A DNA stretch of 53,937 bases. Source: a virus. A program made the translations under genes and the position numbers. A model generated the notes under the pieces. The model did no database searches. It had not been told where the DNA came from and saw nothing but the letters and a program-made list of their open reading frames with translations. Where the stretch lies: positions 1 to 53,937 of IMG/VR virus record IMGVR_UViG_3300030012_001811. One strand, 5' to 3'. Positions 6,551 to 16,253 of this stretch are shown piece by piece (positions within the stretch are counted from its first letter, which is position 1; the number at the start of each line of letters is the position of its first letter).

Positions 6551-6736
6551 ATGAGCAAAGCAGCAATTAAAAAAGTAGCACAAGCCGAGATCCGAGCAGC
6601 AAAAAGCTTTTTGGACAAAAGGAACTTGCAAAACATAAGTCCTAAGAAGTTTGCCATTGCAGCAAAAGAACTTGATAAAGGTTTCCAAGACACTCTAAAA
6701 GTATTAATAAAAGAACTTTCTGGAGGTCAAGTATGA
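6551..6736 (+). CDS. Small helical hypothetical protein
   Basis: The start at 6551 is preferred over one at 6494 because it lies 1 base after the previous stop and avoids a long overlap with the neighbour. The 61-residue product is amphipathic and helical (AAIKKVAQAEIRAAKSF). A TTCTGGAGG site for the next gene lies inside its 3' end. No family is recognised. Confidence 0.55.
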   Translation: MSKAAIKKVAQAEIRAAKSFLDKRNLQNISPKKFAIAAKELDKGFQDTLKVLIKELSGGQV

Positions 6737-7782
6737 ATCACGACAAACCTATATTCTCTAAAAGTCAAGCTGGAGCAGAGATGTTTGCAGCACCAGATCC
6801 AACTATGAGAACTAGGACAAGAGACTTTATACAAAACTATCTAACAAATATTTTAGGGCAGAACACAGCAAGACAATATGCGGAGAACATAGCAGGAGCA
6901 GATCCAAATAATCCTATGCCAAGAAATCCTTTAGGCATCGGTGCTGCAGACTTTACACCTCTTGGTTTGTTGTTCGCAGGTCAAGAGATCAAAAGAGATT
7001 TTGATAAAGCATCAAGACCATTGGACTATGTTGCACCAACCATCGGTGGAGCTTTAAGTGTTGCTGAAGCTTTTCCATTAACAAAAGTTATGGTCAGAGG
7101 AGTTTCTAAACCAGTTGTTGGCTTTCTCTCAAACCTTAACAGAAAGTCTGTTGACAGCGAAGCAGATTTAAAAATCCCAGAAAAGCCAGAACCATTGATG
7201 ACATCTCCTGGACCAAAGACCACTAGGGATGATGAGACAAATGTTAAGCCACCAAAGAAAGGTGTATCGAGAAGGAATGTGTTAAAAGGGATTGCGGCAG
7301 CACCAGTCGCAGCAGGAGCATTAAGTGAGATCCCTGCAGGCAAACTTATAGAGGACATCGCACCAGTTGCTAAAAAAGCTATACCCAAGCTACCAACAGA
7401 TGTAACAAGTCTCTCATCATTTCAAAAAGCAATGGACATGTTAAACATGGAAGTTGGTATCGATGAAGCAGGCATGATGACTAAACAAGAGCTTAAAGAC
7501 ATTGGCATTGCTGATCCTGATAATATGATTGATGATGATTTTATCCAGATAGGTCGTGCGGTTGAGGAGCAATCCAGTTTCCCAATGTCTGAGCTAGAGA
7601 TCCTAGATATGGAAAGCACAAACATAAAGAGATATTTAGATGGAGAGATATCTTTGGATGAGGTTGACACAGGATCTGTCCCTGTCGCTGGACCAGTTTT
7701 AAGGCAACTAGAAACAGTTTACAAACTTGACAAAAAGCAGATAAGAGATTATTTGATAGAAAATGAAGTATTGGAGGACTGA
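6733..7782 (+). CDS. Head-module protein with internal twin-arginine-like motif (paralogue 1)
   Basis: The 349-residue product carries SRRNVLKGIAAAPVAAGAL at about residues 178-196. This is very close to a bacterial twin-arginine signal (SRRxFLK followed by a hydrophobic stretch), but sits in the middle of the protein. An earlier hydrophobic region lies near residues 70-115. The same motif is near the N-terminus of the two following genes, so the three form a tandem family sharing this module with unrelated C-terminal parts. The C-terminal third is acidic. A minor virion role is likely from context. A real Tat signal is doubtful because of its internal place. Confidence 0.7.
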   Translation: MNHDKPIFSKSQAGAEMFAAPDPTMRTRTRDFIQNYLTNILGQNTARQYAENIAGADPNNPMPRNPLGIGAADFTPLGLLFAGQEIKRDFDKASRPLDYVAPTIGGALSVAEAFPLTKVMVRGVSKPVVGFLSNLNRKSVDSEADLKIPEKPEPLMTSPGPKTTRDDETNVKPPKKGVSRRNVLKGIAAAPVAAGALSEIPAGKLIEDIAPVAKKAIPKLPTDVTSLSSFQKAMDMLNMEVGIDEAGMMTKQELKDIGIADPDNMIDDDFIQIGRAVEEQSSFPMSELEILDMESTNIKRYLDGEISLDEVDTGSVPVAGPVLRQLETVYKLDKKQIRDYLIENEVLED

Positions 7783-13843: not shown

Positions 13844-14257
13844 ATGGCAGATATTACAACTACGACAACGATCTCTGACAATCCTAGAGAAGTTGTCATG
13901 TCTTTCCAATATCAATATGTTGATACAGGGAATGAGAGTGCGGTCTCTAAAATAGATGTGTCAAGTCTTGCTAAGAATGCTGCAGGAGAAACTTGCACAG
14001 GTGTAAGGATCATTGAGTGTTGGTGGATAATATCTGCTATGACTGTTCAAGTCTTAGCTGATGCAGACACAGATGTTATGATTATGCATCTTACTGAGGG
14101 TCAATCAGGTTATCAAGATTTCTCAAAATTTGGTGGATTATTAAAAAGTCAAAGCTTTGGTACAAATGGAACTGGGGACATAAAGTTTACGACCACTGGT
14201 GCTGGAGCTGCAGGAGACGCATATCAAATAATAATTAGAGCAGTTAAAGAGTATTAA
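13844..14257 (+). CDS. Virion structural protein (beta-rich)
   Basis: The 137-residue product follows with a 13-base gap and a CTAGGAGAT site, and resembles the previous gene in composition (MADITTTTTISDNP, beta-rich core, ADADTDVMIMHLTEG). The two may be diverged paralogues or partners. It passes on to the adaptor gene by a TAATG overlap. Virion role is inferred from composition and position. Confidence 0.6.
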   Translation: MADITTTTTISDNPREVVMSFQYQYVDTGNESAVSKIDVSSLAKNAAGETCTGVRIIECWWIISAMTVQVLADADTDVMIMHLTEGQSGYQDFSKFGGLLKSQSFGTNGTGDIKFTTTGAGAAGDAYQIIIRAVKEY

Positions 14258-14925
14258 TGGCAACATCGGGAACAGTAACATTCAGACCAGACGTTGAGGA
14301 AGTCATTGCTGAGGCTTTTGAGCGTGTAGGGATTGATGATCAAACTAGGACAGGTTATCATGCAAAAGCTGCACGCAGAAGTCTTAATTTATTGTTCAGT
14401 GAGTTTGCAAACAGAGGTATAAATTATTGGACTGTTCAAAATAATACTTTAAGCCTTACCTCTGGAACAACAACTTACACCCTCCCAGCAGGAACAATAG
14501 ATTTTATTGACGTTGTTATAAGAGAAAACAATGTTGATACAGCAATGACTAGGCTGAGTTTCGCTGAGTACAACCAACTGCCTAACAAAACATCTACTGG
14601 GAAACCTAGTCAATATCTTTTAGACAAACAATACACTCCACAGATCCGAGTGTATCAAGTTCCTGACTCAAATGACTATACTCTCAGTTATTGGTCAATG
14701 AATCAGATTGAAGATATAACTGCGAGCAATCAAGACACTGACATTCCTTACAGGTGGACAGATTGCATATGTGCAGGTTTAGCGAGTAAGCTCTCATTAA
14801 AATATCAACCAGACAAATTTAATCTCTTGAATCAAATATATGAGAGAGCTTTTGAATTTGCTGCTGCATCAGACAATGATGGTGTTTCAATGAGGATAAG
14901 ACCAACAGGTCTTAACTTGAGCTGA
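14257..14925 (+). CDS. Head-tail adaptor (P22 gp4-like candidate)
   Basis: The 222-residue product has an N-terminal helical part (FRPDVEEVIAEAFERVGIDD, LNLLFSEFANRGINYWT), then LSLTSGTTTYTLPAGTIDFI, a pattern I associate with tail accessory factors of P22-type neck proteins. The helix near its end (KLSLKYQPDKFNLLNQIYER) is also typical. It would attach below the portal. It lies three genes after the capsid. Exact class is uncertain. Confidence 0.65.
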   Translation: MATSGTVTFRPDVEEVIAEAFERVGIDDQTRTGYHAKAARRSLNLLFSEFANRGINYWTVQNNTLSLTSGTTTYTLPAGTIDFIDVVIRENNVDTAMTRLSFAEYNQLPNKTSTGKPSQYLLDKQYTPQIRVYQVPDSNDYTLSYWSMNQIEDITASNQDTDIPYRWTDCICAGLASKLSLKYQPDKFNLLNQIYERAFEFAAASDNDGVSMRIRPTGLNLS

Positions 14926-16253
14926 TGAGAAGTGGAAAATTTGCAAAAGGAAAAAGAGCCTATGCAATAAGTGACATTGGTGGTCACAGAGTTCCTTACA
15001 CAAAATTAAAAACACAATGGGATGGCTTAAGAGTTGATCCAGAAGAGTACAGCCCTAAACACCCACAATTGGATCCACCAAGACAAGTTGTTGATTCTGT
15101 CGCATTAAGAAACTCGAGATCTGACAATGCTCCAGAGAATATAGACTTTTTTGTTGGTTTTAATTACGATCCTTTTTTAGATAAATTAAATCGTCCTGGA
15201 GTTGGGATCTCTGGTAAAGGTCAAGCAGGTGTTGTAAGTTTCGATCTAAGCAGAGATGCAGAGCCAACTGGTGTCGGTGGCACAGGTGGAATAGGAACTG
15301 AGCTTGCTCTCGGAGCTGCAGTGGAAACAGGATTAGCAGGAACAGGTGGTCTAGCAACCTTTGGAGGAATATCAGCTTACACAGGTTACACAATAACAGT
15401 TGTGTCAACAGGCAGTGGAAATAAATATTTTGTCGATGGTGTTCAACAGCAACAGCTATATTTACAAGAAGGAAGTGTCTATAGGTTCGACCAATCTGAC
15501 TCAAGCAACTCTGGACATCCACTAAGGTTTTCAACAACAAGCAATGGCACTCATGGGAGTGGCACTGAGTATACGACTGGCGTAACAACTGCTGGCACTC
15601 CAGGAAGTTCAGGAGCATATACGCAGATTGTCGTCGCATCAGGAGCAGCAACTCTTTATTATTATTGCACGAATCATTCAGGGATGGGTGGAACAGCTTA
15701 CACCCCAGCAACAGGAACTATCTCTCTTGCCATAACAGTTTCTAATCCTGGAAGTGGTAACAAATATTATATCGATGGTGGTGGTCCAGCACCGACTATA
15801 AGTTTGACTGAGGGCAAAACATATAGGTTCGATCAGTCTGACAACACTAACTCTGGGCATCCATTAAGGTTTAGCACAACATCAAACGGAACACATGGTG
15901 GTGGTTCAGAATATACAACAGGAGTAACAACTGCTGGCACTCCAGGAAGTTCTGGTGCTTATACACAAATAGTAGTTGCCGAACACGCTCCAACTTTATA
16001 TTATTACTGCACAAACCACAGTGGCATGGGTGGACAGCTTAACACACCATCTGTTAGCTCTGAGGCAGTTATAGAAATAACAGAGACATTAACAGGTGTG
16101 GGTGGTTCTGGTGGCGTAGGAACTTCGGCAGTTAATGGTAATCCAAATGTCACAGGTGTAGGTGGTACTGGTGCAGTCGGTAATGAGACAGCACAAGCTG
16201 ATGACCCGACTTGGGGTAGTGGTGGCTGGAACGAAGGAGCATGGGGACAATAA
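14925..16253 (+). CDS. Virion protein with two cupredoxin-like repeats
   Basis: The 442-residue product has a conserved-looking N-terminus (about 1-110, GGHRVPYTKLKTQWDGLRVD), then Gly-rich linkers, then two homologous domains of about 103 residues at 155-257 and 269-370. Each has GHPLRFSTTSNGTH and YYYCTNHSGMGG. In domain 1 the candidate copper ligands are H198, C248, H251 and M254; in domain 2 H312, C362, H365 and M368. The H...C-x2-H-x2-M order is that of type 1 copper proteins. Gly-rich tails follow. It lies between the two adaptor candidates. Metal binding is a prediction, and the role may be purely structural. Confidence 0.78.
   Translation: MRSGKFAKGKRAYAISDIGGHRVPYTKLKTQWDGLRVDPEEYSPKHPQLDPPRQVVDSVALRNSRSDNAPENIDFFVGFNYDPFLDKLNRPGVGISGKGQAGVVSFDLSRDAEPTGVGGTGGIGTELALGAAVETGLAGTGGLATFGGISAYTGYTITVVSTGSGNKYFVDGVQQQQLYLQEGSVYRFDQSDSSNSGHPLRFSTTSNGTHGSGTEYTTGVTTAGTPGSSGAYTQIVVASGAATLYYYCTNHSGMGGTAYTPATGTISLAITVSNPGSGNKYYIDGGGPAPTISLTEGKTYRFDQSDNTNSGHPLRFSTTSNGTHGGGSEYTTGVTTAGTPGSSGAYTQIVVAEHAPTLYYYCTNHSGMGGQLNTPSVSSEAVIEITETLTGVGGSGGVGTSAVNGNPNVTGVGGTGAVGNETAQADDPTWGSGGWNEGAWGQ
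15387..16034 (+). repeat. Tandem duplicated cupredoxin-like domain in coding sequence
   Basis: Two units, about 15387-15695 and 15729-16034, encode near-identical blocks. Matching stretches include the codons for GHPLRFSTTSNGTHG and for TTGVTTAGTPGSSGAYTQIV. The nucleotide sequences have drifted at third positions, so the duplication is not brand new. Confidence 0.8.

Follow-up and report, generated by a model that had tools for sequence, protein, structure and literature searches.

Two cupredoxin-like repeats with conserved predicted type 1 copper ligands in a putative phage virion protein

The 442-aa protein encoded by the ORF at 14925..16253 (+ strand) of the window (the whole stretch of viral DNA analysed, 53,937 nucleotides, probably from a marine phage) is probably a virion component that presents a pair of cupredoxin domains; both carry an intact predicted copper site that is type 1-like and has an amicyanin-type loop (His ... 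Cys-x-x-His-x-x-Met). This reading draws on the sequence, the predicted fold, the gene context and the finding that all four ligands are invariant.

From its N- to its C-terminus, the protein comprised an anchor domain (about residues 1-110; 14925..15257, + strand), kept across phages after the adaptor gene; a Gly-rich linker; two cupredoxin-like repeats of about 105 residues each; and a Gly-rich tail with Trp-Gly motifs. Repeat 1 spanned about residues 155-262 (15387..15710, + strand) and repeat 2 about residues 268-377 (15726..16055, + strand); positions 15387-16034, to which the first-pass annotation had assigned two cupredoxin-like domains, corresponded to residues 155-370. The repeats shared 74% protein identity. 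In their 77-residue core, about 0.69 of the synonymous sites differed vs. about 0.14 of the nonsynonymous sites (JC dS 1.95, dN 0.16), with synonymous divergence near saturation, and because of these values the repeats were taken to stem from a duplication that is old and has been subject to purifying selection, and not from recent copying. The last residues of the Gly-rich tail were WGSGGWNEGAWGQ; the Trp-Gly motifs of this C-terminus (16200-16250) were similar to a GWGxxxWG motif in one relative (L089), and may be a shared terminal element.

The four predicted copper ligands were found in both repeats in the order H/C/H/M, with exactly the numbering given in the first-pass annotation: His198 (15516..15518, + strand) and C248-x-x-H251-x-x-M254 (15666..15686, + strand) in repeat 1; His312 (15858..15860, + strand) and C362-x-x-H365-x-x-M368 (16008..16028, + strand) in repeat 2. 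The first His belonged to the motif GHPLRF, starting at residues 197 and 311, and the other three ligands to the motif CTNHSGM, starting at residues 248 and 362. C248 and C362 were the sole cysteines of the protein, and M254 and M368 its sole methionines besides M1.

Conservation was assessed in an alignment (A2) of 56 domains of less than 85% identity and 119 columns, made from relatives in IMG/VR and GTDB genomes. Only 4 of the 119 columns were invariant, and these were exactly the predicted ligands H, C, H and M, a His followed in order by Cys, His and Met as in type 1 copper sites. The relatives had been retrieved with exact peptides, two of which included ligands, and none of the patterns used contained the Met. 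The invariance is not an artefact of this retrieval, because the rows without the search peptides still keep the ligands (C, H and M in 27/27 rows without LYYYCTNH, and the first His in 54/54 rows without DNTNSGHP) and because the Met had not been searched for. The same conservation was seen in relatives from annotated phages, which a BLAST search with the full-length protein had retrieved, and the full ligand set was kept in 254 of the 256 distinct full-length domains among all the phage and cellular domains collected. The two exceptions, in cyanophage proteins of giant size (more than 1700 residues; P-HM2 and ACG-2014h), were degenerate copies additional to intact ones; they were considered as a possible refutation, but each adjoined intact copies. 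Selection on the site, as had been argued from the two repeats alone, is thus supported by the ligand columns of A2, by the 254 domains and by the low nonsynonymous divergence between the repeats; free variation of the four residues among homologues, named in the first-pass annotation as grounds for abandoning the proposal, was looked for, and the ligands were kept. Several domain copies, some of them degenerate and with ligands lost, were also observed in giant cyanophage baseplate and fibre proteins (L166, L174, L175).

A single Cys per domain was present in 55 of the 56 A2 domains, so that no intradomain disulfide is expected, and an Ig-type disulfide fold was ruled out on the same ground. 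The four-residue invariance, together with the single Cys and the absence of an intradomain disulfide, is also consistent with a structural metal, in which copper or another soft metal would merely rigidify the beta-sandwich so that an extracellular fibre survives seawater, with no receptor or redox role; the spread of the domain over baseplate, tail-fibre and neck proteins of differing roles points the same way. This explanation was considered possible but doubtful: type 1 sites are normally dispensable for cupredoxin folding, and the persistence of site-less degenerate copies in the P-HM2 and ACG-2014h proteins indicates that the fold tolerates loss of the site.

Single-sequence AlphaFold2 gave an unusable model of both repeats (pLDDT 37), and the model based on the 56-row alignment was used instead (repeat 2; pLDDT 95.3, pTM 0.87). 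The predicted model was a Greek-key beta-sandwich, and cupredoxin-fold proteins accounted for all of the best 50 rows when it was compared with the PDB by VIA-align. The top match was the N-terminal cupredoxin domain of Hyphomicrobium denitrificans nitrite reductase (2dv6; Z 9.3, rmsd 2.4, 95 residues aligned), which differs from the window domain in belonging to an enzyme and in its low identity (16%). Sixteen chains reached Z of at least 8, a score close to those that common arrangements can also reach, and one to be read together with the sequence bridge described below. Foldseek against the PDB retrieved CueO, SufI, rusticyanin and small laccases at E values of about 0.01-0.06, interleaved with immunoglobulin-like domains, a result that counts against the cupredoxin reading. 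By DSSP, the ligands of the predicted model were placed as in blue copper proteins, at strand ends and in a loop: H45 (numbering of the model) was just before strand 47-50, C95 was the end of strand 91-95, and H98 and M101 were in the loop preceding strand 103-106. In the plastocyanin-type layout, ligands at such positions form the type 1 copper arrangement. The cupredoxin fold, already suggested in the first-pass annotation, is thus very likely for the repeats, as far as the model indicates.

The link to known cupredoxins by sequence ran through intermediates. Pfam Copper-bind (PF00127) did not match the window protein even at E 10, and gave weak matches in 8 of 56 relatives (best 0.032); since the curated cut-off was not reached, the protein was not filed as a PF00127 member. 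The A2 profile matched a 148-aa protein from Prochlorococcus AG-418-M08 (E 1.1e-5), which was in turn matched by Copper-bind above the cut-off (33.4-33.7 bits vs. 21.2; E 6.2e-8) and by solved plastocyanin chains (5.9e-4) with the first His, the Cys and the second His aligned. This Prochlorococcus protein (L203) had a signal-like N-terminus, is probably secreted, scored between plastocyanin and the phage domain, and is a possible cellular relative. Two tail-protein repeats, from P-SSM2 and P-HM2, were also matched by A2 and, slightly below the cut-off, by Copper-bind. In contrast, hhalign of A2 against a small alignment of six cupredoxins gave a probability of only 50% (E 1.6e-4), which, like the lack of a direct Pfam match, speaks against the cupredoxin reading. 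When PDB sequences were searched directly, neither the window protein nor A2 retrieved anything but antibody chains and one unrelated protein (E >0.1). The statistical link to the plastocyanin/azurin lineage through the intermediates supports placing the domain in the cupredoxin superfamily, but not in PF00127 as curated.

Assignment to the carbohydrate-binding family CBM_4_9 was rejected, the Pfam match being weak (E 0.003) and below the cut-off. That match and the Ig-like domains among the Foldseek rows are what would be seen if the repeats were a non-metal Ig-like adhesion module resembling cupredoxins, with the H/C/H/M cluster as a structural or glycan-binding site; with cupredoxins in all of the best 50 VIA-align rows, full invariance confined to exactly the copper set, and the sequence bridge to plastocyanin, such a module is improbable.

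The gene neighbourhood agreed with a position near the neck or tail; the first-pass annotation had placed the protein near the neck or fibres. The start of the ORF coincided with the stop of a SU10-type head-tail adaptor gene directly upstream (14257..14925, + strand; PF24175, E 5.3e-13, above the cut-off); portal and major capsid genes were located further upstream, and a virion structural protein gene and tail-fibre genes downstream. Among the PHROG families, those of tail fibres and baseplates matched the protein, with E values as low as 1.6e-41. With this placement in a structural module and the homology to annotated virion proteins, both read from genes and sequence, the protein is in all likelihood a virion protein. 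Elsewhere in the window, a 349-aa ORF (6733-7782) showed an internal match to a twin-arginine signal model (residues 178-197), probably by chance.

The anchor domain matched phrog_28581 (residues 5-68, E 3.7e-11) and, by tblastn, sequences in the roseophages CRP-901/902 and the pelagiphages HTVC023P/027P, with the same gene order after the adaptor. The cupredoxin domain was absent from CRP-902 and HTVC027P when the whole genomes were searched with the domain profile; in phage 023Pt, cupredoxin and anchor were on adjoining genes; and of the 176 ORFs with a cupredoxin in the loci collected, 96 also had the anchor. The anchor thus looks like a fixed element, with exchangeable outer modules. Variants of the anchor were seen among its homologues (L033, L084): a CxxC...CxxC zinc-ribbon-like pattern was observed in 24 of these 96 anchors, and the window version (14925-15200) had no cysteines there.

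The first-pass annotation had called a metal-binding virion protein of this kind unusual, but the domain was common: at least 600 rows were matched in each of two IMG/VR scans, and in the annotated phages with the domain, which infect Synechococcus, Prochlorococcus, Pelagibacter and Methylophilales, its carriers were for the most part tail-fibre, baseplate or structural proteins. The tail-fibre and baseplate repeats of S-TIM5, S-B68, P-SSM2, Mosig, HTVC028P and Melnitz were homologous to the window domain, and in the cyanophage and pelagiphage copies examined the four ligands were kept, save in the degenerate extras of P-HM2 and ACG-2014h; these repeats differ in their carrier proteins, whose annotations go no further than tail fibre, structural or hypothetical. 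No match was obtained in plasmid records. In cells, SAR86, SAR92 and marine group II archaea carried a homologous domain, with the ligands as in the window protein, at the C-terminus of lipoprotein-like proteins, which differ from the phage protein in being cellular and in having lipobox-like signals and cadherin-like or collagen-like repeats. Matches were found in 47 of the 81 genomes of the family of one SAR86 genome; at least one (L330) was a phage-type protein with the anchor, and the others that were inspected were cellular-type proteins. A conserved cupredoxin-bearing protein of about 636 aa was observed in many SAR86 genomes, and the cadherin-like or collagen-like repeats, followed by the cupredoxin near the C-terminus, were seen in the SAR86 proteins L326-L329 and the marine group II proteins L097-L099.

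The window domain resembles the amicyanin/plastocyanin family (PF00127) in predicted fold, ligand order and ligand positions relative to the strands, and differs from it in lacking a direct Pfam match. The C-x-x-H-x-x-M spacing of the repeats is that of amicyanin (CTPHPFM), plastocyanin having two more residues before the Met, whereas the distance from the first His to the Cys is 50 residues in the window repeats and 39 in amicyanin. Amicyanin and plastocyanin are soluble periplasmic carriers, while the window domain is part of a putative virion protein. Blue copper proteins usually transfer electrons, and P-SSM2 has a separate plastocyanin-like gene besides its domain-bearing tail protein; a redox protein carried in the virion and acting on host-envelope partners would fit both facts. 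It is nevertheless highly improbable, because the domain is a modular part of structural proteins and no redox partner domain was found in the protein or among the annotated neighbouring genes.

A metal on a phage tail has precedent in the HxH motifs that bind octahedral iron in the tail fibres of T4 (gp37) and Alteromonas phage R22Y, for which the Trojan Horse hypothesis proposes a role of the iron in attachment (PMC11705849). The window protein would share with these fibres a metal site, predicted here, on a phage tail protein; the site itself differs, being a predicted folded mononuclear copper-type site and not an octahedral iron site, and no HxH motif (two His two positions apart) was present within the 442 aa. 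By analogy, host envelope copper-acquisition proteins might recognise virion-bound copper. The presence in each chain of two predicted metal sites, both highly conserved, and the existence of related host surface lipoproteins, together with the iron precedent, would suit such a copper Trojan Horse, which was considered unlikely; this and metal-based stability are the main rivals of the preferred explanation.

In that preferred explanation, display of two cupredoxins on the virion, the N-terminal domain would attach the protein to the neck or tail, close to the adaptor, and the Gly-rich linkers would keep the repeats outward from the particle. The sites would bind copper, probably acquired once the cell has lysed, since synthesis of the protein takes place in the host cytoplasm; judged from sequence and model together, binding of copper in the virion is likely. 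The copper-loaded or copper-rigidified domain could then help the particle adhere to the host envelope, which harbours copper-handling proteins and related cupredoxin lipoproteins. For an adhesion or receptor role of the virion cupredoxins the chances seem about even, this step being weakened because many cyanophages carry the domain in baseplate proteins and not in receptor-binding tips.

Cupredoxins and modular phage fibres are already known; what is new, as far as the open-access literature searched shows, is their combination, with intact predicted type 1 sites on virion proteins, and its oceanic breadth. No paper joining cupredoxins with phage tail fibres or cyanophage virions was found in the open-access literature, subscription papers and preprints being outside the search. 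The predicted fold, the four ligands and the recurrence of the domain across hundreds of phage sequences and in secreted lipoprotein-like proteins of abundant ocean bacteria and archaea make copper on virus particles directly testable. Should the sites bind copper, blue-copper-type metal sites would be present on the particles of a large set of ocean phages. This would give the iron Trojan Horse idea a concrete copper counterpart, offer a way into host recognition by pelagiphages and cyanophages, and point to a possible pool of copper ligands in seawater. At its widest, and quite speculatively, marine tailed phages as a group might bear genuine type 1 copper proteins on their virions, with host surface lipoproteins as their source or as sharers of the same domain; virion copper would then engage the copper-handling proteins of the host surface, and virions would constitute a seawater pool of organically bound copper.
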